NCBI GenBank assembly: GCA_016839055.1 | Contig: JAEKNX010000003.1 | Location: forward strand, 62,001 to 126,000 | Direction of reading: 5' to 3' | DNA length: 64,000 nt | Source of the DNA: Spirochaetales bacterium | GTDB lineage: Bacteria > Spirochaetota > Spirochaetia > UBA9216 | Part shown: positions 15,424 through 43,230 of the stretch, one piece after another | How positions within the stretch are numbered: the stretch's first letter is position 1 | Layout: each line of letters begins with the position of its first letter | Program-made: the position numbers and the translations under genes | Notes under the pieces: generated by a model | What the model was told of the DNA's origin: nothing | The model's input: the letters and a program-made list of their open reading frames with translations, nothing else | The model's database searches: none

Positions 15424-15596
15424 TAAACCATAAATGACTTGCTTTTTTGACATTCCGGATTTAAACTGCGGTATATTTTTATTATCTTCCGAATCTTCAT
15501 TTCCTGAAAACCAGGCAGAGATGCCTGCGTATGGAAGAAGATCGACGGGTTCAGCCGGAAACAGCTGCGCCTCCCGTGTTTGGAAAGGAAGTCAAA

Positions 15597-17087
15597 TTGT
15601 TAAAAAAAATCAGCGTTGCCTCGGCGGCCCTGTTCTGTGCGCTAAATTTATACTCACTCTCGGTTTCGGTAAACTCCAGCCCATGGGAAGATTACAGCCG
15701 GCAGAGACTTGACAGTCTTGCCTATGCTATCGCCGCTGATAACGGAGAGATAAAAAAAGGTATATCACTCGCCGAACTCTTTCCGGCTCTATTTGACGCA
15801 TGGCTCCTCGAAGTCGAGTGCTCCCCGGCCTCCGAAAGGGTTCAATTTGAGGTTCCTGACCTGGCTGATAAACTCGAGGGAATCTTTTTAAGCGCCGGGT
15901 CATCAGGATGGGAACTTGAATACGAAGGCCTCACATTCAGTAATATAAATTCAATAAATATTAAAGGTGAAGTTCTGACCAAAAGACCCCTTGAAATTTG
16001 GGTTAACTGGGAGGGCACGGAATTCCTCCGTGGCGAGATTAAGAGATACGCCGATCTTCATCGTGTCGAGATTAAGGTAACCGAAGTACCCCGGCCGGAT
16101 TCGAAACTTATTTCAGTCGCCAGAGGCGGCGGGGCTGTTCCTGACATTCTCATGGTTCAGTCCGGCTACATTGACAGTCTTGTCCGGTCGGGAAGCATAC
16201 AGAATATCGGATACATGTATCCTGAAGGGCTGCAAGTTCAGGGGCGAGAAGCTTTTACCTACGATGGAAAGATCTGGGCGGTACCATTTTACTATGACGC
16301 CCAGCTTATGTTCTATAACCCCGAAATGATTCACGGCCCAGATTACAACTGGACCCTCAGCGATTACGAGAAGCTTTGCAGAACTGCCGGCAGTTCCGGA
16401 TCGATCGCCTCTGCATGGAACGCCTATTCTGCATCATTTCTTATTCCCTTTCAGTTGTCCTTCGGAAAACAGCATATCATAGAGCCGGACGGCTCAATCA
16501 GGATTACCGACGAGGCCAGCAGAAAAGCCCTCGAATACATCATAAGACTAAAAGATGCCAGCCTTATGACTCCTATGGAAAGAGACGCCATGACTTCGCT
16601 CTTTGTCTCAGGAGATGCCGCGATGATTATCAGCGCGTCATACGCCATTCCTCACTTTCAGGATCTTGGAATCCCCTTTGAGACTGTCCCCCTCCCGGTA
16701 AACCAAAATACAGGAATAAGGGTCTCGCCGCTTCTCGACTTTAAGGCCTTCGCTATTACAAAAAAATCCCGGAACACTGCCGGAGCACGCCGCCTTATCG
16801 AATACCTTACCGGAACCGGAGTTCAGTACCGTTTCACATCCGAGACATCAAAGGTTCCAGCCCTGGAATCCGCTTTCAGACTTCTCAAAGGCGAAAACAA
16901 GTACTACGAGGCTCTCAGAATTAGCGCCGAATCAGGAACAATCATACCTACTGACAAAGCATACTCAGTTTACAAAAACACGATGTGGAAGATGCTCAGA
17001 TTTGCAATCTCAGGCAGAATGCCCCCCGGAGTAGTGCTTGAGAAAACACAGGAGCTTGTAGATAAAAATATGGAAGATATAAATTAA
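15597..17087 (+). CDS. Extracellular solute-binding protein of an ABC transporter
   Basis: This family 1 solute-binding protein is the substrate receptor of the operon that ends with the fused permease. The TTG at 15597 is chosen because AAGGAAG lies 5 bp upstream and translation then begins directly with a signal peptide (LLKKISVASAALFCALNLYS). An ATG at 15531 would add 22 unrelated residues before it. The 496-residue product has the usual hinge blocks: GGGAVPDILMVQSGYI, KIWAVPFYYDAQLMFYNPE and LLDFKAFAITKKS. An extra ~150-residue beta-rich N-terminal part precedes the binding fold. It lies 9 bp from the next gene. Confidence 0.85.
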   Translation: MLKKISVASAALFCALNLYSLSVSVNSSPWEDYSRQRLDSLAYAIAADNGEIKKGISLAELFPALFDAWLLEVECSPASERVQFEVPDLADKLEGIFLSAGSSGWELEYEGLTFSNINSINIKGEVLTKRPLEIWVNWEGTEFLRGEIKRYADLHRVEIKVTEVPRPDSKLISVARGGGAVPDILMVQSGYIDSLVRSGSIQNIGYMYPEGLQVQGREAFTYDGKIWAVPFYYDAQLMFYNPEMIHGPDYNWTLSDYEKLCRTAGSSGSIASAWNAYSASFLIPFQLSFGKQHIIEPDGSIRITDEASRKALEYIIRLKDASLMTPMERDAMTSLFVSGDAAMIISASYAIPHFQDLGIPFETVPLPVNQNTGIRVSPLLDFKAFAITKKSRNTAGARRLIEYLTGTGVQYRFTSETSKVPALESAFRLLKGENKYYEALRISAESGTIIPTDKAYSVYKNTMWKMLRFAISGRMPPGVVLEKTQELVDKNMEDIN

Positions 17088-31774: not shown

Positions 31775-32638
31775 TCAGAACAGGTTTTTCGTCGAGTCGG
31801 CGTCGACTTCAAGAATAAAATCACCCATATGAATCATAGTCTGGCTCCTTATGTCGTTATAGGTCCAATCTCTCCATTCACCCATTGCATCCGCTTCCCA
31901 ATCGTACCGTCTGTCCCGATTAACAAGTTCGGTATACCAGAAGGTGACGGTATTGCCCTTCTGCCATGTTACACCTGTGGGAGCAAGCCTGTACACGCTG
32001 CCTCCCTTCTCTCTTTCACCGGTTGTTATGGCAATCTCAGCATCATGGAATTTAGTAGTATTAAGCTGAGAAAGCATAAACTCAGTACCGGTTATTTTAT
32101 ATGTCTTTACGCTGCTGTCTAAATAAATTTCCTCGATGCCTCCCGATGTTTCTTTATGTTCATAGTTCCACTTGTACTCCCAGGTATCGGCAACAGCAGC
32201 CGCCTTATACACAGCATACATGCCGTTGCTAGTTATATAGACTGTAAATGAATCTATTATCGACCAGGCAGTAACATCCTCCTGCTCAGCGTAGAAATCC
32301 GCAAGAACAACCCAGTCGTCGCTGTCGCCCCAGCCCCAGTGCTCTGTTGCGGTACGGGTCATCAGAAAAGTTTCACTATCATAAGTATAGGTCCCTCGTG
32401 CCCCCCAGGACTGCACCCAGGCCTCGGTAGTGCTGTCCCATTCCTTTCTAACCACTTCATAGCTTCCATCGGCTCTGTAGGTGTCTACCCAGGCTCCCGA
32501 ATCAAAAACCTCGTCCGAGATGAAATGTCCATCCCAGACTAACGGTTCATCTCCCATAATTGCCGGAGGCGATACCGGACATGCCGTTAAAAACACCAGA
32601 AAAACTAATGCTGTAATAATAATTAACTGTTTTTTCAT
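31775..32638 (-). CDS. Hypothetical lipoprotein
   Basis: The start at 32638 has GGGGAGAAGGAA immediately upstream and yields MKKQLIIITALVFLVFLTAC, a clear lipoprotein signal; an ATG seven codons earlier is less likely. The mature part of about 265 residues is Trp/Tyr-rich and beta-like, with repeated short motifs (YRADGSYEVV, RGTYTYDSETFLM, GWGDSDDWVV) resembling lipocalin-like spirochaete lipoproteins. The function is unknown. Confidence 0.7.
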   Translation of the reverse strand: MKKQLIIITALVFLVFLTACPVSPPAIMGDEPLVWDGHFISDEVFDSGAWVDTYRADGSYEVVRKEWDSTTEAWVQSWGARGTYTYDSETFLMTRTATEHWGWGDSDDWVVLADFYAEQEDVTAWSIIDSFTVYITSNGMYAVYKAAAVADTWEYKWNYEHKETSGGIEEIYLDSSVKTYKITGTEFMLSQLNTTKFHDAEIAITTGEREKGGSVYRLAPTGVTWQKGNTVTFWYTELVNRDRRYDWEADAMGEWRDWTYNDIRSQTMIHMGDFILEVDADSTKNLF

Positions 32639-32819
32639 TTCCTTCTCCCCTATTTTCATTATGAAAATATCAGAGCAGGAATTGTACCAACTCTTGAGAA
32701 TAAGATAAGTTGTTAGTTTGTAAATAGTTATTCAACTCGAAGATTTCATTGACAGGTTTATGAGTAAACCATTATTGACACAGGAGTAAATTTTACTTGA
32801 CACCTCTCCTTTCGAAAGG

Positions 32820-34036: not shown

Positions 34037-34852
34037 ATGAATATTGAAAAACTTATCATTAAAAATGAGACAGTAATCTGTTATTCGAAAGGCGGGGGAG
34101 ATACCACGCTCTTTTTCATTCACGGCAATTCAAGTTCTTCACAACTGTTCGAGAAACAGCTTGAAAGTGAACTCTCTGAGCAGTTCCGCCTTGTTGCGGT
34201 AGATCTGCCGGGCCACGGAGCCTCAGATTATGCCATTGAACCCGAAAAAAGCTACGGCTTTGCCGGTCTTGCTGACATTATTGCGGGGGTCTCGGTGAGT
34301 ATGAAGCTTGAGAATGTAATTTACATCGGGCACTCCCTGGGCGGCCATATTCTGCTGCAGGAAGGGTACAGACTACCCGCGCTGGCCGGTATTGTGGTTT
34401 TCGGCTCGACTCCATTTGATCTGCCGCCGCGCTTTGATTTGGCCTTTCAGAAAAACCCTGCCAATGAATACTTCTTCAGCGACTGCCAGGATGATAATCA
34501 GTTTGCAAAATGGGCGGGCCTCATGCTTTCTCATGGCATCAAGGTGCCGGGGCGAATCATGCTGAATCTCCAGACAACCGACCCGTTGTTTCGGAAAAAA
34601 ATCGGCGAATTTATTAAAGCGGGAAAACTAAATAGAGAGACGACAATGGCCGAAAGCCTACCGGTTCCTCTTGCCGTTATTCACGGCCGGGGTGATCAGC
34701 TAATCAATCCAAAGTATATGAGCAATTTGTCAATGAAAAATCTCTGGCGCGGGGGAGTTCAGTACCTATACGGGGGGCATTGCCTGCAGTGGGAATCGCC
34801 GGAGAGCTTTAACAGCCTTATTGTCGAATACGCCGACGAGCTTTCAGACTGA
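34037..34852 (+). CDS. Alpha/beta hydrolase
   Basis: This 271-residue alpha/beta hydrolase has the oxyanion segment FFIHGNSSSSQLFEKQL, the nucleophile elbow IGHSLGGH with the catalytic Ser, the acid strand end AVIHGRGDQLINP and a C-terminal GGHCLQWESPE supplying the catalytic His. The substrate is not readable. No ribosome-binding site precedes the ATG; TATAAT at 34008-34013 gives a leader of about 16 nt. Its end overlaps the convergent response-regulator gene by 9 bp. Confidence 0.85.
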   Translation: MNIEKLIIKNETVICYSKGGGDTTLFFIHGNSSSSQLFEKQLESELSEQFRLVAVDLPGHGASDYAIEPEKSYGFAGLADIIAGVSVSMKLENVIYIGHSLGGHILLQEGYRLPALAGIVVFGSTPFDLPPRFDLAFQKNPANEYFFSDCQDDNQFAKWAGLMLSHGIKVPGRIMLNLQTTDPLFRKKIGEFIKAGKLNRETTMAESLPVPLAVIHGRGDQLINPKYMSNLSMKNLWRGGVQYLYGGHCLQWESPESFNSLIVEYADELSD

Positions 34853-36235
34853 TTCAACTTCCTGATTATTCTTCAGCAGCCTCTTGCTGAGAGCTTGCTT
34901 TGATATTCCCAGAAAGCCGGCTGCCAGGGTCTGATTCCCTTCGGCCCTTCCCATTGCCTCTTGAACAAGAAGCTCAACCGCCTCTTTGATTGTCGGAAGC
35001 TCACTCCTGTCATTCTGATAGGCCGTAAACGCCGGCCCTTCCTGCGAAGAGCTTCTTTTAATCTTCAGTTTCTTTCTGATGTTTTCGGCCATGGTGCCGC
35101 TTACAAGACTTCGCTCCTCTGAATCAATGAGAAGAGATCTTAGTTCGCGCACATTTCCAGGAAATGAGTATCCGCGCAGAATTGAAACAATTTCAAGACG
35201 GGCCTCAGGACATGAATTCGAAAGAAAATATTCAACAAGAAGAGGAAGATCCTCAAAACGATCCCTCAATGGCGGGATTACTATTGAATGTGTATCAAGG
35301 CGGTAAAAAAGGTCTTTTCTGAACCGTCCATCCCTTACCATTTTCGAGATATCCCTGTTTGTTACCGCGATGATTCTGGTATTAGATCTCTTAGGAAGAT
35401 CCGAGCCGAGAGGATAATATTCACCCTTATCGATGAGCCGCAGGAGTTTTACCTGAGAATTATTTGACAGATCACCAATTTCGTCCAGAAGAATTGCGCC
35501 CCCCTCAGCCAGCTGCAGAAGTCCCGGGCGGCGGTCACTGGCTCCGGTGTAGGCTCCTTTGTGATGACCAAAGAGAGTATCCGAAAAAGTCAGATCATCA
35601 ATTCCTGCAACATTTACCGTAATATACTCCCCCTTTTTGTTGCCCGCGTCATAAACAGCACGGGCAAAAAGCTCTTTCCCGACCCCAGTCTCTCCTGTAA
35701 TCATGACAGGTTCTGTTGAATCGCCAATTATTTCGATGTAGGCAAAAAGCTGGGACATCTGCGTGGTTCCGGTAATTATATTCGAGAATATTCCAGGATT
35801 TTTTATCCTGCTGGTAAACAGATATTCACGGAGATTGCGGTTCTCCCTTGCAAGCGAACGATACTCAATGGCCCGTCTTACGCCACTTAGCAGCCGGCTT
35901 TTCTCCACAACCTTAACCATATAGTCAAAGGCTCCAGCCTTAATACATTTAACAGCTTCGGCAATGTCATTTACTCCTGTAATAATAATTACAGGAACCT
36001 CCGGATAGTTCTCGGTAATATAGGAAAGGACTTTCTGTCCGGACAGTTCCGGCATCATCAAATCCAGCAAGACCAGTTCAATAGGCCGGACCGACATAAC
36101 CGACTGAACCTCACGCGAATCGGACAGGCAGATAATATTATCGATCCCCTCCGACATCAGCAAAGATTTCTGTCCTTCGAGAATATACTCCTCATCATCG
36201 ACTATCAGTATTGGTTTTGAAGGATATTGTTTCAT
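34844..36235 (-). CDS. Sigma-54-dependent response regulator (NtrC type)
   Basis: This 463-residue enhancer-binding protein has a receiver domain (about 1-120, Asp in VLLDLMMPEL), a central AAA+ domain (about 145-375) and a Fis-type HTH at the end (GNQTLAAGFLGISKQALSKR). In the AAA+ domain are Walker A GETGVGKE, the sigma-54 contact loop written GAYTGA instead of GAFTGA, and Walker B GAILLDEIGDL. It overlaps the giant sensor kinase by 4 bp. It is the probable activator of the two sigma-54 promoters found at 41487-41502 and 41687-41702. Confidence 0.95.
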   Translation of the reverse strand: MKQYPSKPILIVDDEEYILEGQKSLLMSEGIDNIICLSDSREVQSVMSVRPIELVLLDLMMPELSGQKVLSYITENYPEVPVIIITGVNDIAEAVKCIKAGAFDYMVKVVEKSRLLSGVRRAIEYRSLARENRNLREYLFTSRIKNPGIFSNIITGTTQMSQLFAYIEIIGDSTEPVMITGETGVGKELFARAVYDAGNKKGEYITVNVAGIDDLTFSDTLFGHHKGAYTGASDRRPGLLQLAEGGAILLDEIGDLSNNSQVKLLRLIDKGEYYPLGSDLPKRSNTRIIAVTNRDISKMVRDGRFRKDLFYRLDTHSIVIPPLRDRFEDLPLLVEYFLSNSCPEARLEIVSILRGYSFPGNVRELRSLLIDSEERSLVSGTMAENIRKKLKIKRSSSQEGPAFTAYQNDRSELPTIKEAVELLVQEAMGRAEGNQTLAAGFLGISKQALSKRLLKNNQEVESV

Positions 36236-39200
36236 AACAAATTGCCTCTTTCCTTACTTACCGGAACAGAGACTACCGCTGTTGTTCCCGAATATTCATT
36301 TTTCCTGTACTTCAGACTGCCTTCAAACATTTTTATTATTTCCTCCGATATTGAAATCCCAAGCCCAAGACTGCCCTTGGTCGAATAAAACGGTTTCTTC
36401 ATCTGTTCAGCGCTTGAAGAAAATCCTGTTCCCTCGTCTATGATCAAGATTTTAACGGCATCATCTTCCTGCGTGTAAAAAGATTCTATACGCAATATAC
36501 GGCTTTTCTCAGGCAGGGACTGACAGGCGTTTATTATCAGGTTCATGAGGGCCTGCTGCATTTTCTGACGACTCCCTGAAACAGCAGGAAGCGCTGTAGC
36601 CAGATCAACCGAAAACCTGTCAGTAGATTTTTCAATAAATCCGGTACAAAGAGTTATTGTCGATTCAATGATGGAATTTATATTCAACTGTTCGGGCGCG
36701 GCATCCGGCTCTCTCCTGACATACCTTTTAAGCTCTTTGATGACACTATCGATCTGCTGTGAGCAGCTGAGAATAGTATCGACAACCCGAGGAATCTTCT
36801 CTCTAAATTCATTAAACGACAGGCCGCCGATGTGCAGGCTGTCGAGATCCTCCGAGTAGTCTTCAAGGAGGGCAAAAACCTCATCCTTGACCCCCGAGAG
36901 AAATTCGGAATTCAGATGAATAGCATAATTCGGGTTGCTAACCTCATGGGTAATGGATGCCGCGAGAATTCCCAGCGACGCCATCTTTTCAGCCTGAAGA
37001 AGCTGTTGAAACTGATCCTTATTCTGCTCTTCTTTCTGCTTCAGGGCTGTATAACTCTGCTGCAGAGATTCATACAGCCGGGAATTTTCCAGTGAGACCG
37101 AAATCTGACCCGATAGATATTTAAGCAGCTCCAGCCGTGCCGGAGAAAAGACGCCTCTTGTCAGCTTGTTGTCAAGATAGATGCAGCCTACGAGTTTACT
37201 CCTGTGCATCAACGGCATACACAGAATGGATTCAGAATCACCTGTCTTAAAGTAATCGATGCCAAATTGCTCCGGCTCACTTGGAGAACCGTTCAGAATT
37301 ACCGGCTGCAGGGTCCGGACAGTGTAATCGAGAATCTCCTGTGAATACAGGTTCGCATCTGACTCCTGTGCCTGAAGTGAGGTCTCAACTTCAAGATTTC
37401 CATCCTTTATTCCTGCAACGGCAACGGGTGTAATCATATTTTCATTTTCAAGAAACAGTATTCCGCGCTGCGCGCCGCTGTACTGAATCACAATCTTCAA
37501 AATTGCCTTTATAAGATCCCCGGGAACAATCTCTCTAGAAATAGCCCTGGCAGCCGATAAAACACTGGAGACATCGACTATCTTAGCTACCTGCTCAATA
37601 ACAGATTCCCGGCTGAGTCCGAAAATAGGATTGGTTCTTAGAAAAGGATAATTCAATTCAAGCTGCTCGAACTTCCTGACCGCTCCCCATCTTCTGTACA
37701 GGATGTAAGCTTCCCTGAGGCATGTCTCAGCCTGCGGAGCATTTCCCTGGGATAAATAAAACCCTCCGGCCAGCTCATTAGCCAGGGCCTGATCCTGCAC
37801 GAATCCGTTTACCCCGGCACATTTGACAGCCTGAGCATAATTCCATGCCGCCGTCTCTACATCGTTCCTGCAACGTGCCAGTTCTGCCTTTGCAAGGAGC
37901 AGGCGATGCTGATTATTCCCCGGAGCGAAGCCAGCGAAAGAGGCGAGCAGCTTCATGTTCTTTCTGACTTCATGCATCCTGAACTTAGCACCTTCGGTAT
38001 AATTCCATTTGAGTAATGCCAGCGTGGCGTACCAGATAAGCCAGACATATGTGAATTGCCCAAGCAGCCCCGATGAAAACTCCCGGGCCTTGTCCGAATA
38101 ATCTATCGCGGTCTTGTAATCATCATAATGATAATGAATTATCATTTTATATGTATGAAATGAAGCTGCCGCGCTGTTATCCCTTACCCTGATATATTTA
38201 GATAGCTGCCTGTCTTCCTCAGCAAAAGAGGAAAATAATAAAAACTTATCTGCTGTATTTCCGCTCAGGTTTTCAATCAGACCGTAGGTTCTTAGAATAG
38301 AAGCCCGTCCACGTTTATATCCTGTTCGTGATATAAAATTAAGCTTTTCCTCCTTATCATCAAGAAAAGACTGAAGATTCTTTCCCGACGCAAAATTCAG
38401 AAAAAACATGAGGTTCTGAGACAGGGCGGCATACTCAAAATTTCCGCTTTCCATCCCCATACTCACCCCCTTTCTCAGAGTGACAATGCTGTTTTCCAGA
38501 GGCTCACTCCAGTGCTGGAGAAAACAACCATAGATAAAATACACCTTTGAACAAAGGCTCTTCCTGGCCTGCCGCTGACATAATTCCATTCCAAGCCGGC
38601 CAAATTTTATTGCGTACTTCCTTCTTTCAGGTTGTTTCAGGAGGATCAGCCCGTACATTACAAGAATGAACGGCATAGAAGAGGAACCGCCGTATTTCAA
38701 AGACAGACTCAGGGTCCTGAAGATTAAATTATCAAGTTTTTCCGGTACAGAAAGATAAACGGCGGAAAACGACATCATCAGAATCTCAATAACGGCCTCA
38801 ACCTTCTGATTTTTAAGACTCGGAAGCCGCGTGAAGTAATGCTCCGACTTACGATACAATCTTCGAACTTGAAGACCAGGCCATAAGATCTTACGTACCT
38901 CCAGCGACCTCAGGAGTTCCTCTGCGGCCGCGACCGCCTCCGTCCTTCTATTTTGCGCTATCAGCGCCGTGATGGTCTCTTTTTCAAGCAGGACCTTATC
39001 GATTACATTATTTACATGAGTATTAGATTCCCTGATAAGCATTTCCATCCGGGCATAATTGCCTGTCAGCCTTGCAGACTCAATACACTGCCGGTACAAT
39101 AGAATTTTCTCCGAATATTCCAGATCAATCCTGTACTCCTTAAATAACCGCATAGCCGCATTCGAAAGGATGACACATAATTCCCAGGCCGACTGTTCAC

Positions 39201-41370
39201 CGGCCCTTACCGCGGCGTCGATGTTCATTCTTGTTAATAAAGCTATTTCAGCTCTTGAGTCAATCAGCATTGAAGCCTTGTTATAGTGGGTGACTATCTG
39301 AATAAGATCTTTATCTCCCGATACTTTTCTTTTATTTAATTTACGCGCGATATTCAGATGCAGGGTTTTTAAATCTAATCCGGAAACCCGGGAATATGCT
39401 GCCTGCCGGATTTTATCGTGGCTAAATTTATATTCATATTCATTGGCGTCGCTGCGGAAGATAAAACCTGATTCTACAATTTCACCGAGATCCATTTCAA
39501 TATCCATCATCGATATTTTCAGGATAAACGACAAGCAGCGAGAATCAAATTGGTCACCAAGACAGGCCGCGTAATTAAGCAATTCAAGCTGCCGGTCATC
39601 CAGCTTCTTCATTTCGGAAACAAGAAATCCTATTACATTTTCCGATCCGCAGCATAGCTGAAGGGAATCTGTTTTCCAGCACCAGCTCTGTGAATCATAA
39701 TTGAAGCTTAGTATGTTTTCATTCTGAAGCTTTTCAAGAAGCATTCTCATATAAAAAGGATTTCCGCCTGTCTTGGAAATCAGCACCTCGGAAAGGCCGG
39801 AAGCCTCGGCCTCGGTACAACTTAGAAGATTAGAAAGAAAATCTCTTATTGCTTTCCCCGGGAGGGAATCAAGATAAAGCTCTAGAACTATGTCTTGCCG
39901 ACTCTGCCTGAGAAATTCCATGACTGCTTCCTGTTCTTCAGTCTCCTCAGTCCTGTAAGCCAGAATAAGCAGCATTTCCCGCGGAAAGATAATTTGCCTA
40001 AGGCCTTCCTTCAACAGTTCCAGAGAGGAATCATCAATCCACTGAAGATCGTCAATGAAAATTGTAAGCGGATTATTATCACCTATAATAATTCTTAGAA
40101 ACTCGAAGAGGCAAACCATCAGCCTGTTTTTTGCCTCTTCGGGGCCAAGAGGCTCCGCGTCAGGCAGAGGCCCGGTTAAAAGTTCAATATCCGGGACAAT
40201 TCCTGAAAGAACTCCAGCCGATTTAAGTATCCTCCGGCTAAATTTCTTTCTAATGCTTTTCAGATCTTCATTCGAATTCTTCAGATAATCATGAACAAGT
40301 GCCCGAAACGGTTCTAAAACGGCATGATAAGGAAGGTTCTGCTCGGCCTGCCCGCATTTTCCCGAAAGAATCAGGCCGTCCCGCTTCCTGAGAGCCGGAA
40401 TTATCTCGTTTACAAGCGAGGTCTTTCCGACTCCTGCATTTCCGCTTACTTTGATTATCCGATATCGTGAGGAGTTTCCATGATTAATGATCTCATAAAG
40501 CCTTTCTTTCTCGGCATCTCTACCGAAAATTCTTCCGCTGAACTCCAGCCTCGGAGACCTGTCCCTGGTTCCCGGAATAAATTCTGTTTCCATACCAGCT
40601 TTGATATTCTGTTTCAATCTGAGCAGATCCTGAAGAAGACCATAGGCGGTGTGATACCGCTGTTCCGGATCTTTTTCCAGTAACTTGCAGATTACGGTGG
40701 AAAGCTGTACCGGAATACCTGTATTCAGCTGTACCGGGGGAACAGGTTTGACAGCAAGATGCCTGTAAATTGTCTCTTCCGGAACCCCGCCCGCACAGGG
40801 ATACACCCCGGTCAGAAGACTGTACATCAAGACGGCCAGTGAATACAAATCTGAAACCGTGGAAGAACTGACCCGGCTCTGGTTTATTCTCTCGGGTGCA
40901 ATGTATGGAAGGTAATCACTCCAGCTGAGTACAGGCATATTGGCCGTGAAAAACAGTCCGTATCCTGAACCATCTCTCCGGCGAAAGATGAAATGCGGAG
41001 ATATCTCTCCATGACATAAACCATTCCTCTGCATCTCATGAAGGGCCCGGGCGGCACCTATACCTATTTCAATGACAGTTTCCGCGTCAGATGCCTGAAT
41101 TTTATCACCTGTTAAAGGAAATGCCGGAGCATTATCATACCTCAGGACTATTTCATTATCAGAGCCTGCGGCGACCTGGGGCAGACAGAGTGATTCTTCT
41201 CCGCCGAAGCGGGATAATAAAAATTTAATTTCTGTAAGTGATTTGCAGTCCACTCCGGCCCTGTTATATATGATTTCTGTTCCAATACTGCCGCTAAAAC
41301 CGCCAATCCAGATTGAAGCATTTTCTCCACGATATGAGCACTGACGTTCTGTAATCTTTTCTATTTTCAT
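36232..41370 (-). CDS. Giant hybrid sensor kinase: STK-like, AAA ATPase, TPR, GAF, histidine kinase
   Basis: This 1712-residue, soluble-looking protein starts with a Ser/Thr-kinase-like fold (about 1-255). Its catalytic loop reads HGEISPHFI instead of HRDxKxxN, so it is probably a pseudokinase. A predicted ATPase domain follows (Walker A GNAGVGKTS near 311-319, Walker B LTIFIDDLQW), then a long helical-repeat region (about 650-1290), a GAF domain (about 1320-1460) and a histidine kinase: ITHEVSNP with His1475, LMNLIINACQ N-box and DEGTGF G1-box. The domain order is that of Che/ActR-like 'TOMM-system' kinases. It is the partner of the adjacent sigma-54 regulator. A near-consensus sigma-54 promoter precedes it. 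Confidence 0.93.
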   Translation of the reverse strand: MKIEKITERQCSYRGENASIWIGGFSGSIGTEIIYNRAGVDCKSLTEIKFLLSRFGGEESLCLPQVAAGSDNEIVLRYDNAPAFPLTGDKIQASDAETVIEIGIGAARALHEMQRNGLCHGEISPHFIFRRRDGSGYGLFFTANMPVLSWSDYLPYIAPERINQSRVSSSTVSDLYSLAVLMYSLLTGVYPCAGGVPEETIYRHLAVKPVPPVQLNTGIPVQLSTVICKLLEKDPEQRYHTAYGLLQDLLRLKQNIKAGMETEFIPGTRDRSPRLEFSGRIFGRDAEKERLYEIINHGNSSRYRIIKVSGNAGVGKTSLVNEIIPALRKRDGLILSGKCGQAEQNLPYHAVLEPFRALVHDYLKNSNEDLKSIRKKFSRRILKSAGVLSGIVPDIELLTGPLPDAEPLGPEEAKNRLMVCLFEFLRIIIGDNNPLTIFIDDLQWIDDSSLELLKEGLRQIIFPREMLLILAYRTEETEEQEAVMEFLRQSRQDIVLELYLDSLPGKAIRDFLSNLLSCTEAEASGLSEVLISKTGGNPFYMRMLLEKLQNENILSFNYDSQSWCWKTDSLQLCCGSENVIGFLVSEMKKLDDRQLELLNYAACLGDQFDSRCLSFILKISMMDIEMDLGEIVESGFIFRSDANEYEYKFSHDKIRQAAYSRVSGLDLKTLHLNIARKLNKRKVSGDKDLIQIVTHYNKASMLIDSRAEIALLTRMNIDAAVRAGEQSAWELCVILSNAAMRLFKEYRIDLEYSEKILLYRQCIESARLTGNYARMEMLIRESNTHVNNVIDKVLLEKETITALIAQNRRTEAVAAAEELLRSLEVRKILWPGLQVRRLYRKSEHYFTRLPSLKNQKVEAVIEILMMSFSAVYLSVPEKLDNLIFRTLSLSLKYGGSSSMPFILVMYGLILLKQPERRKYAIKFGRLGMELCQRQARKSLCSKVYFIYGCFLQHWSEPLENSIVTLRKGVSMGMESGNFEYAALSQNLMFFLNFASGKNLQSFLDDKEEKLNFISRTGYKRGRASILRTYGLIENLSGNTADKFLLFSSFAEEDRQLSKYIRVRDNSAAASFHTYKMIIHYHYDDYKTAIDYSDKAREFSSGLLGQFTYVWLIWYATLALLKWNYTEGAKFRMHEVRKNMKLLASFAGFAPGNNQHRLLLAKAELARCRNDVETAAWNYAQAVKCAGVNGFVQDQALANELAGGFYLSQGNAPQAETCLREAYILYRRWGAVRKFEQLELNYPFLRTNPIFGLSRESVIEQVAKIVDVSSVLSAARAISREIVPGDLIKAILKIVIQYSGAQRGILFLENENMITPVAVAGIKDGNLEVETSLQAQESDANLYSQEILDYTVRTLQPVILNGSPSEPEQFGIDYFKTGDSESILCMPLMHRSKLVGCIYLDNKLTRGVFSPARLELLKYLSGQISVSLENSRLYESLQQSYTALKQKEEQNKDQFQQLLQAEKMASLGILAASITHEVSNPNYAIHLNSEFLSGVKDEVFALLEDYSEDLDSLHIGGLSFNEFREKIPRVVDTILSCSQQIDSVIKELKRYVRREPDAAPEQLNINSIIESTITLCTGFIEKSTDRFSVDLATALPAVSGSRQKMQQALMNLIINACQSLPEKSRILRIESFYTQEDDAVKILIIDEGTGFSSSAEQMKKPFYSTKGSLGLGISISEEIIKMFEGSLKYRKNEYSGTTAVVSVPVSKERGNLL

Positions 41371-41486: not shown

Positions 41487-41502
41487 AGCAATTTTCATGC
41501 CA
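41487..41502 (-). promoter_or_regulatory. Sigma-54 promoter of the kinase-regulator operon
   Basis: On the minus strand the sequence TGGCATGAAAATTGCT matches the -24/-12 consensus TGGCACG-N4-TTGCW with one mismatch. Transcription would start near 41476, 106 nt before the kinase ATG. Confidence 0.75.
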
Positions 41503-41576
41503 GAGAGTGAATTATAGTTAACTCGCTCTCTCAGAACAAATTATCTGCCTCAGACATCAGACTGAGACAATCCAGC

Positions 41577-41615
41577 GTCAACTTATATTGACAGTTCGTT
41601 TCAATATAAGTTGAC
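41577..41615. promoter_or_regulatory. Perfect 15-bp inverted repeat, candidate shared enhancer (UAS)
   Basis: GTCAACTTATATTGA (41577-41591) and TCAATATAAGTTGAC (41601-41615) are perfect inverted copies with a 9-bp spacer. The centre (41596) is 120 bp from the predicted start of the kinase operon and 117 bp from that of the lipoprotein. No T-run follows, so it is not a terminator. Likely ligand: the Fis-type HTH of the sigma-54 regulator. Confidence 0.7.
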
Positions 41616-41686
41616 AAATCAGTCTTATGAAAAAATCGCGCTTTCATAACCCCTTGTTATTTATAGAATTATGCATTCCAAAAACA

Positions 41687-41702
41687 TGGCCCGATAATTG
41701 CA
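41687..41702 (+). promoter_or_regulatory. Sigma-54 promoter of the cadherin-like lipoprotein
   Basis: TGGCCCGATAATTGCA matches TGGCACG-N4-TTGCA with one mismatch. The predicted start is 41713; AAGGAG then lies 6 bp before the ATG at 41737. Confidence 0.78.
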
Positions 41703-41736: not shown

Positions 41737-43230
41737 ATGGTCAAGAAACTTAAAGTCGATTTAAGAATGTGCATTCTTCTTCTCAGTGTGTTACTAATCT
41801 TCGCGGCCTGTGATGATTTCCCCGGAACCCCAAGCGGTCCCGATGATGCAACACTATCCGGTCTTAGTGTAAGCACGGGAACTCTAAGTCCTGATTTCGC
41901 CCCGGGAATAGAGACTTATTCACTGCCGCTGGCAGACACCGTCACCGAGATTACCCTTACTCCGACCGCAACCAACAGCTCGGCGACCATCACTGTAAAC
42001 GGCACGGCCGTCATTTCCGGCGAAGCCTCCGGAGCCCTGAGCCTCTCAGGAGGGATAAACACTATCAATATAGTAGTGACGGCCGAAGACGGCACCACTG
42101 AAAAAACCTATACAATCAGCGCAGTAGTCGGCGGAGTAAACCTAAGCGGCACCCTGACCCTTCCGAACGGCGAGGATGCTTCCGGGAAGGACTTCCATCT
42201 CGGACTCATTACAGATTTTGACGAGGCTACCGAAGACACAAGATCAATTGACGCGGTATGGACCTCCGGGAGTAATCAGACCTACCAGTTAACCGGAGTT
42301 CCGGAGGGAACTTACTATCTATACGCAATCATCGACTGGAACAATGATGGAGACTTTGACGATGGATATCCCGACTACGCCGGACTGTCGGGATTTACCT
42401 TCGACAGCCTTAATTCGCTCATTGTTGACGGAACCCCTCCGGGAGACGCCAATATAATCGTGGCCGATTCAAACCTCACAGCCGATATCACCGACATTCA
42501 GCAGATACCGGCGAGTGACGGGACAATTACAGTTTCGCTTACAGGCGCCGGAGATGAAAACGGAGAAGTTTTTCTGTTTTATGTTTATAATGCAGAAGAT
42601 ACTCCGACTCCGAGCAACCATGTGGCTACCGGCAGCGATACAGTCCAAGCCGGTTTTGTATCAATTGTTGCGCAGGCAAAAGATACAAATGAAGACTTCA
42701 TCGGAACAGGCGGCTCCGGCTACAACATCTTTGTACTGATTGAGAACGTCATAGTCAACAGCAGCCCTGACAACGGCGAACCCTTTGGCGCATACATGAA
42801 TGAGGTAATCGACGGCAATATCACCATCCAGGTTAACTATGAAGATCTGGAACCTTATGTTACGCCGCCGAGTGACGGGACTATTACTGTTTCGCTTACA
42901 GGCGCTCCTTTACAGACGGATGACTCCTGCGGAATCGCAATCTTCCCCGAAGACGGTCCATACGGAGAAGACGATAGACTTGGGCAGAATTATGCGCCAA
43001 TCGGAAGCGACGGCTCCGTCACAATAACCGCAAGGAACGCTGATGATACAGAAAATTTCACCGGCACAGGCGGAACAAACTATGACGTCTTCGTTTTAGT
43101 TGATGAAAACAATAATGGTGCAACCGATATTGGCGAGATGATCTACATGGCTACAGGAAATACCGTGGATGGTGATATTACAGTACCTGTAGACTATGGT
43201 GGTATGACTCCTTATGTAACTGTCCAATAA
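41737..43230 (+). CDS. Lipoprotein with cadherin-like beta-sandwich and repeats
   Basis: This 497-residue protein has a lipoprotein signal (LLLSVLLIFAAC). Residues ~35-130 form a cadherin-like beta-sandwich domain (DATLSGLSVSTGTLSPDF ... EDGTTEKTYTISAVV). Three beta modules of about 110 residues follow; modules two and three both begin SDGTITVSLTGA and share a TGGxxYxxFVLxxxN motif. A surface structural or adhesive role is probable. Its own sigma-54 promoter and the shared inverted repeat place it under the neighbouring two-component system. An intrinsic terminator lies just after the stop. Confidence 0.85.
   Translation: MVKKLKVDLRMCILLLSVLLIFAACDDFPGTPSGPDDATLSGLSVSTGTLSPDFAPGIETYSLPLADTVTEITLTPTATNSSATITVNGTAVISGEASGALSLSGGINTINIVVTAEDGTTEKTYTISAVVGGVNLSGTLTLPNGEDASGKDFHLGLITDFDEATEDTRSIDAVWTSGSNQTYQLTGVPEGTYYLYAIIDWNNDGDFDDGYPDYAGLSGFTFDSLNSLIVDGTPPGDANIIVADSNLTADITDIQQIPASDGTITVSLTGAGDENGEVFLFYVYNAEDTPTPSNHVATGSDTVQAGFVSIVAQAKDTNEDFIGTGGSGYNIFVLIENVIVNSSPDNGEPFGAYMNEVIDGNITIQVNYEDLEPYVTPPSDGTITVSLTGAPLQTDDSCGIAIFPEDGPYGEDDRLGQNYAPIGSDGSVTITARNADDTENFTGTGGTNYDVFVLVDENNNGATDIGEMIYMATGNTVDGDITVPVDYGGMTPYVTVQ

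Follow-up and report, generated by a model that had tools for sequence, protein, structure and literature searches.

A predicted autoregulated sigma-54 two-component switch connecting a giant histidine kinase with a small set of lipoprotein genes in a Spirochaetales bacterium

Introduction

What controls transcription from a 366-bp intergenic region that separates the operon of a giant sensor and a sigma-54 activator from a divergent lipoprotein gene? The locus lies within a 64-kb stretch of Spirochaetales DNA (hereafter, the window), and a preliminary description had read it as two divergent sigma-54 promoters around one palindromic enhancer, providing autoregulated control of a surface lipoprotein. 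Here, we examine the promoters, the repeat, and the encoded proteins, and trace the arrangement through the remainder of the genome (G000) and through related genomes. It is very likely, in our assessment, that the locus is an autoregulated sigma-54 two-component switch, in which a sensor-activator pair and a small set of lipoproteins are controlled via paired operators.

Results

Divergent promoters and a predicted operator pair

Only two zero-mismatch matches to TGGCNYGNNNNTTGCW are present in the 64-kb window, and these are the two -24/-12 elements previously placed in this intergenic region: TGGCATGAAAATTGCT on the minus strand (41487-41502; predicted start, 41476), ahead of the kinase-activator operon, and TGGCCCGATAATTGCA on the plus strand (41687-41702; predicted start, 41713), ahead of the gene for the cadherin-like lipoprotein, the leader of which extends for ~24 nt from the predicted start and contains AAGGAG. 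Across the whole 5.0-Mb genome, TGGCNYGNNNNTTGCW has 16 exact matches, compared to 1 for a reversed-pattern control; several of the 16 are intragenic, and single -24/-12 matches are common. The presence of rpoN, which the preliminary description had left to be checked, was verified (Sigma54_DBD, E 1.5e-56). With GG and GC at -24 and -12, the correct spacing, and rpoN in the genome, both elements are classified as candidate sigma-54 promoters with predicted starts.

Between the promoters, GTCAACTTATATTGA and TCAATATAAGTTGAC form an exact inverted repeat with 15-bp arms (41577-41591 and 41601-41615), and the distances of 120 and 117 bp given earlier from the repeat to the two predicted starts agree with the coordinates. 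Shuffling this region 300 times with its dinucleotides preserved gave arms of at most 12 bp, so that the observed length was reached in 0/300. A repeat or mobile element was rejected, there being no further exact copy of the arm in the genome. The perfect repeat thus stands, but its reading as a single palindrome does not: because each arm is itself a dyad, TCAA-N6-TTGA, the structure is better described as a tandem pair of operators, with the consensus GTCAA-N6-TTGAC. Relative to the minus start, predicted operator 1 (GTCAACTTATATTGAC, 41577-41592; centre, 41584.5) is located at -108.5 and predicted operator 2 (TTCAATATAAGTTGAC, 41600-41615; centre, 41607.5) at -131.5; relative to the plus start, operator 2 is the nearer, at -105.5, and operator 1 is at -128.5. 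The two centres are separated by 23 bp.

The giant sensor and its adjacent activator

The minus-strand operon encodes a giant kinase and a sigma-54 activator, as originally described. The sensor (36232-41370, minus strand; 1712 aa) combines, by Pfam, a pseudokinase-like N-terminus, a STAND/AAA_16 ATPase, a GAF domain, and a histidine kinase, and a crude hydropathy test detected no convincing transmembrane stretch in it. The Pfam Pkinase match to this protein (P0001) is below the cut-off, and the HRD and DFG motifs are missing in all three sensor orthologues (HGE/HGQ/HGR, and no DFG), so that the sensor is not classified as an active Ser/Thr protein kinase. The histidine kinase boxes are intact (HEVSNP/HEISNP, NLIINAC, DEGTGF/DQGTGI, and GLGISI/GLGLSI; HATPase_c in Pfam), as in a genuine histidine kinase. 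Because the N-terminal Ser/Thr kinase domain appears to be inactive, the C-terminal histidine kinase would be the working kinase, and the protein is best called a histidine kinase that carries a pseudokinase-like domain rather than a working Ser/Thr kinase. Elsewhere in the genome, two histidine kinase regions on contig C11 (3077-3994 and 7583-8500) match the sensor with identical statistics (E 6.9e-17 and 60.5 bits each), which suggests a recent tandem duplication.

The activator gene (34844-36235, minus strand; 463 aa) overlaps the kinase stop codon. Pfam and the translation identify a receiver, a sigma-54 AAA+, and a Fis-type HTH domain, the composition of an NtrC-type enhancer-binding protein; the receiver retains the phospho-acceptor Asp, and the Walker A motif is GETGVGKE. 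In the present genome and in two relatives that encode orthologues, G006 and G118, the AAA+ loop is GAYTGA, GAFTGA, and GAYTGA, and the recognition helix is GISKQALSKRL, GISKQALNKRI, and GISKQALSKRL, respectively. The best NCBIfam models are AtoC and NtrC, with scores short of the equivalog cut-offs (309 vs 714 and 266 vs 558.6). NtrC-type proteins are abundant in the genome, with 77 matches to the activator (P0002), not all of which are activators. One paralogous histidine kinase-activator pair, on contig C28 (49520-52864; L158), includes an activator that is 48% identical and has a different recognition helix; 1.1 kb downstream of this pair, a -24/-12 match overlaps the first codons of a 548-aa ORF as called.

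Further operator-promoter units in the genome

The plus-strand gene (41737-43230; 497 aa) was correctly recognized as encoding a cadherin-like lipoprotein: the product contains a cadherin-like beta-sandwich domain (PF12733, E 2e-16 in Pfam) and a hydrophobic signal ending in Cys. A near-match scan of the window revealed another tandem pair of predicted operators, at 32764-32779 (GTAAACCATTATTGAC) and 32786-32801 (GTAAATTTTACTTGAC), each a 9/10 match, centred at -108.5 and -130.5 from the predicted start at 32663 of a further -24/-12 element, TGGTACAATTCCTGCT (32674-32689, minus strand). This start is 25 nt ahead of the start codon of a lipoprotein without a Pfam family (MKKQLIIITALVFLVFLTAC..., 31775-32638, minus strand), for which the listed ORF begins earlier, at 32659. 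The exact 15-mer TCAACTTWTRTTGAC occurs at two loci only in the genome, this window and C20:217622, where the operator is ~75 bp from the -24/-12 element TGGCATGAGTATTGCT, which reads into a gene for a lipoprotein with DUF4959 and RCC1 repeats. At this promoter, the operator centre is at -107.5, and the second site is weak only (8/10, -120.5). Both additional elements were found by the motif search itself; they extend the regulon originally envisaged by at least two more lipoprotein promoters.

A relaxed scan for operators located -105.5 to -108.5 from the start predicted by a -24/-12 element covered ~2.1 of the 5.0 Mb, the remaining 58% being searched with the exact pattern only. It yielded four promoters, the divergent pair and the two additional ones, with scores of 26, 25, 23, and 19 over a background of ≤18, and when the operator distance was shifted, few scores reached 19 or more, mostly from the two promoters of the window itself; within the ~2.1 Mb, only these four promoters exceed the shifted-distance controls. 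Additional 8/10 sites near -38 and -43 are too few to be told from chance.

Orthologous loci and a spacing rule

Among 60 relatives and 395 genomes of the class, close full-length orthologues of the kinase were detected only in G006 (42% identity) and G118 (40% and 51% in two parts); more distant giant relatives are 26-31% identical, and most of these align only up to the GAF region. The two G118 parts are split between contigs C386 and C13 at residues 922/923 and were joined by inference, in an assembly with 7% contamination. Several of the nearest named relatives of the activator come from Spirochaetales or Spirochaetaceae metagenome assemblies.

In G006, which encodes a 61% identical activator, the kinase orthologue is preceded by TGGCACGGAATGTGCA and by two exact operators, 32 bp apart, at positions -107.5 and -139.5 with respect to this element, and exact operators precede no other gene in that genome. 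A search of the 395 genomes for an operator followed, after a 66-84 bp gap, by a -24/-12 element produced 40 matches: 3 in the present genome, where ~0.09 were expected (P ~1e-4), 2 in G118, 1 in G006, and 34 in the other 392 genomes. G118 was first picked out by this search and only then shown to encode a 64% identical activator and both kinase halves. On its contig C386, the kinase is likewise divergent from an operon, the products of which are a secreted protein, a protein with a caspase domain, and an FG-GAP lipoprotein; two more promoters, on C280 and C52, precede genes for a lipoprotein and a PEGA/CsgG secreted protein, respectively. Thus, the operators recur before the kinase operon in both relatives, and the divergent layout recurs in G118 but not at the G006 kinase locus, which lacks a divergent lipoprotein and has a FliG homologue as its nearest long upstream ORF. 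The full system was found in three genomes only, G000, G006, and G118, and all its non-kinase transcription units begin with a gene for an exported protein or lipoprotein. In both the window (34037-34852, plus strand) and G006 (L156, 9250-10068, minus strand), a gene for an alpha/beta hydrolase converges on the activator gene, and the activator neighbourhood is therefore conserved.

In 9/9 promoters from the three genomes, the centre of the proximal operator is 105.5-108.5 bp before the predicted start (mean -107.1, sd 1.06 for eight promoters; -108.5 for the ninth, at 32.7 kb of the window), and 8/9 have a second operator centred 128.5-140.5 bp before it. NtrC-type operators are dyads bound 80-150 bp upstream, and the predicted sites are candidate dyads with this fixed geometry.

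Some candidates were discarded. The one-mismatch sites on C2 of the present genome and C92 of G006 are coding; TTGAC-based matches (C11 and C45 of G118, C3 and C10 of the present genome) lack a second half-site or are intragenic; and the one- and two-mismatch operator matches examined in same-genus genomes are coding or have no -24/-12 element. The same operator was not found near the system in the loci with 42-50% identical activators (L032-L043).

Discussion

The evidence points to the following mechanism. The large soluble sensor would phosphorylate the NtrC-type activator encoded next to it, and activator dimers would then bind the paired GTCAA-N6-TTGAC operators, ~107 bp and 129-140 bp upstream of the -24/-12 promoters. 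The bound activator would oligomerise, loop to RNA polymerase-sigma54 via its GAYTGA loop, and open the promoter. With one operator pair serving two divergent promoters, the sensor-activator pair and the lipoprotein would rise together, and solo copies of the operator-promoter unit would drive two other lipoproteins. We infer positive autoregulation because the operators precede the sensor-activator operon in all three genomes, and on the same comparison of sequences, the autoregulated lipoprotein control originally proposed is supported. Judged by their signal sequences, the lipoproteins are probably located at the cell surface.

Another activator could use these sites because the genome encodes many NtrC-type proteins, among them the close paralogue on C28; the promoters and operators would then be real, and the neighbouring activator would control something else. 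We regard this as improbable, since the operator-promoter unit tracks the orthologue through G000, G006, and G118 and is absent before comparable genes in same-genus genomes without it, since the recognition helix is conserved among the orthologues but different in the C28 paralogue, and since the operators precede the operon of this very activator in 3/3 genomes. Repressors and sigma-70 activators, too, typically have a palindrome between divergent genes, and the anatomy of the inverted repeat alone would be compatible with such a regulator, the -24/-12 matches being fortuitous. The constant distance to a -24/-12 element, seen at nine promoters, would then mean nothing, and the signal is lost when the operator distance is shifted, making a conventional repressor or sigma-70 activator a still weaker candidate, which we consider quite unlikely. 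Chance might be suspected, with promoter-like and repeat-like strings arising in AT-rich intergenic DNA, given how frequent lone -24/-12 matches are, intragenic ones included, but an arm longer than in all the shuffles, three pattern matches in one genome against the ~0.09 expected, and independent recurrence in G006 and G118 render this explanation extremely improbable.

The predicted switch has the sequence features of an NtrC-type two-component system controlling a small envelope regulon and most resembles PrsK/PrsR, in which a histidine kinase and an NtrC-type response regulator control PEP-CTERM genes, the dispersed genes for exported proteins have in common an activator motif within a limited distance of the -24/-12 element, and motif and regulator have a common phylogenetic profile (Haft et al. 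2006, PMC1569441). The logic is closest to that found here: a kinase, an NtrC-type regulator, and a motif with a -24/-12 element common to dispersed exported-protein genes. The targets, however, are lipoproteins and other secreted proteins rather than PEP-CTERM proteins, the place of PrsK is taken by a soluble giant kinase that includes STAND ATPase and pseudokinase parts, and the cut-offs of TIGR02915 and TIGR02916, the PrsR and PrsK models of the PEP-CTERM system, are missed by a wide margin (241 vs 502.6 bits and 55 vs 300 bits). With NtrC- and AtoC-type regulators, the activator shares the order of receiver, AAA+, and Fis HTH domains and paired dyad sites ~100-140 bp upstream, but it scores below their equivalog cut-offs and has its own operator sequence and target set.

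Fusions of Ser/Thr and histidine kinases of the Chk1 and HstK kind join an N-terminal protein-kinase fold, an ATPase, a GAF domain, and a C-terminal histidine kinase. The sensor has the same domain series, but none of the three orthologues retains the catalytic residues of HRD and DFG.

In another spirochaete, Borrelia burgdorferi, sigma-54 acting with Rrp2 drives rpoS, and RpoS in turn controls lipoproteins (PMC4014564, PMC3037356). The likeness is an NtrC-type activator and sigma-54 placed over lipoproteins, and the difference is that here, the -24/-12 elements directly precede the lipoprotein genes and are accompanied by specific paired operators. Direct sigma-54 control of lipoprotein genes, as predicted here, would add to and agree with the proposed role of sigma-54 in governing the bacterial exterior (PMC3162934).

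The chances are about even that this is a novel signalling module, in which a soluble histidine kinase with STAND-ATPase and pseudokinase parts drives a very small envelope regulon via a double operator of fixed geometry, and in which module and operator remain constant and the lipoproteins (cadherin-like, RCC1, FG-GAP, caspase-containing, and CsgG/PEGA) are exchanged between lineages. For an otherwise anonymous sensor, a predicted operator, a rule for its spacing, and a short target list are now on hand, so that the pathway can be tested by a handful of gel shifts and reporters, and a giant STAND-type kinase is linked to a defined, if predicted, output.

Envelope genes of other kinds follow -24/-12 elements in the vicinity of the 42-50% identical activators (L038, 14190 plus and 7142 minus; L035, 8358 plus; L032, 14481 minus; L036, 6801 minus). 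The genes preceded by such elements near distant activators encode a PEGA/CsgG protein in L032, like that on C52 of G118, a VWA/FlgO protein in L035, and an apolipoprotein N-acyltransferase-like protein in L038. Two of these loci, L038 and L035, share another upstream word, AGGTT(GAT), near -100; in L036, GCAACCAAGGTTGC is found at about -109.5. The window also contains a molybdenum/tungsten cofactor riboswitch aptamer (RF01055; 15475-15606, plus strand; 59.1 bits vs a gathering score of 36), which overlaps the start of the ORF listed at 15531-17087.
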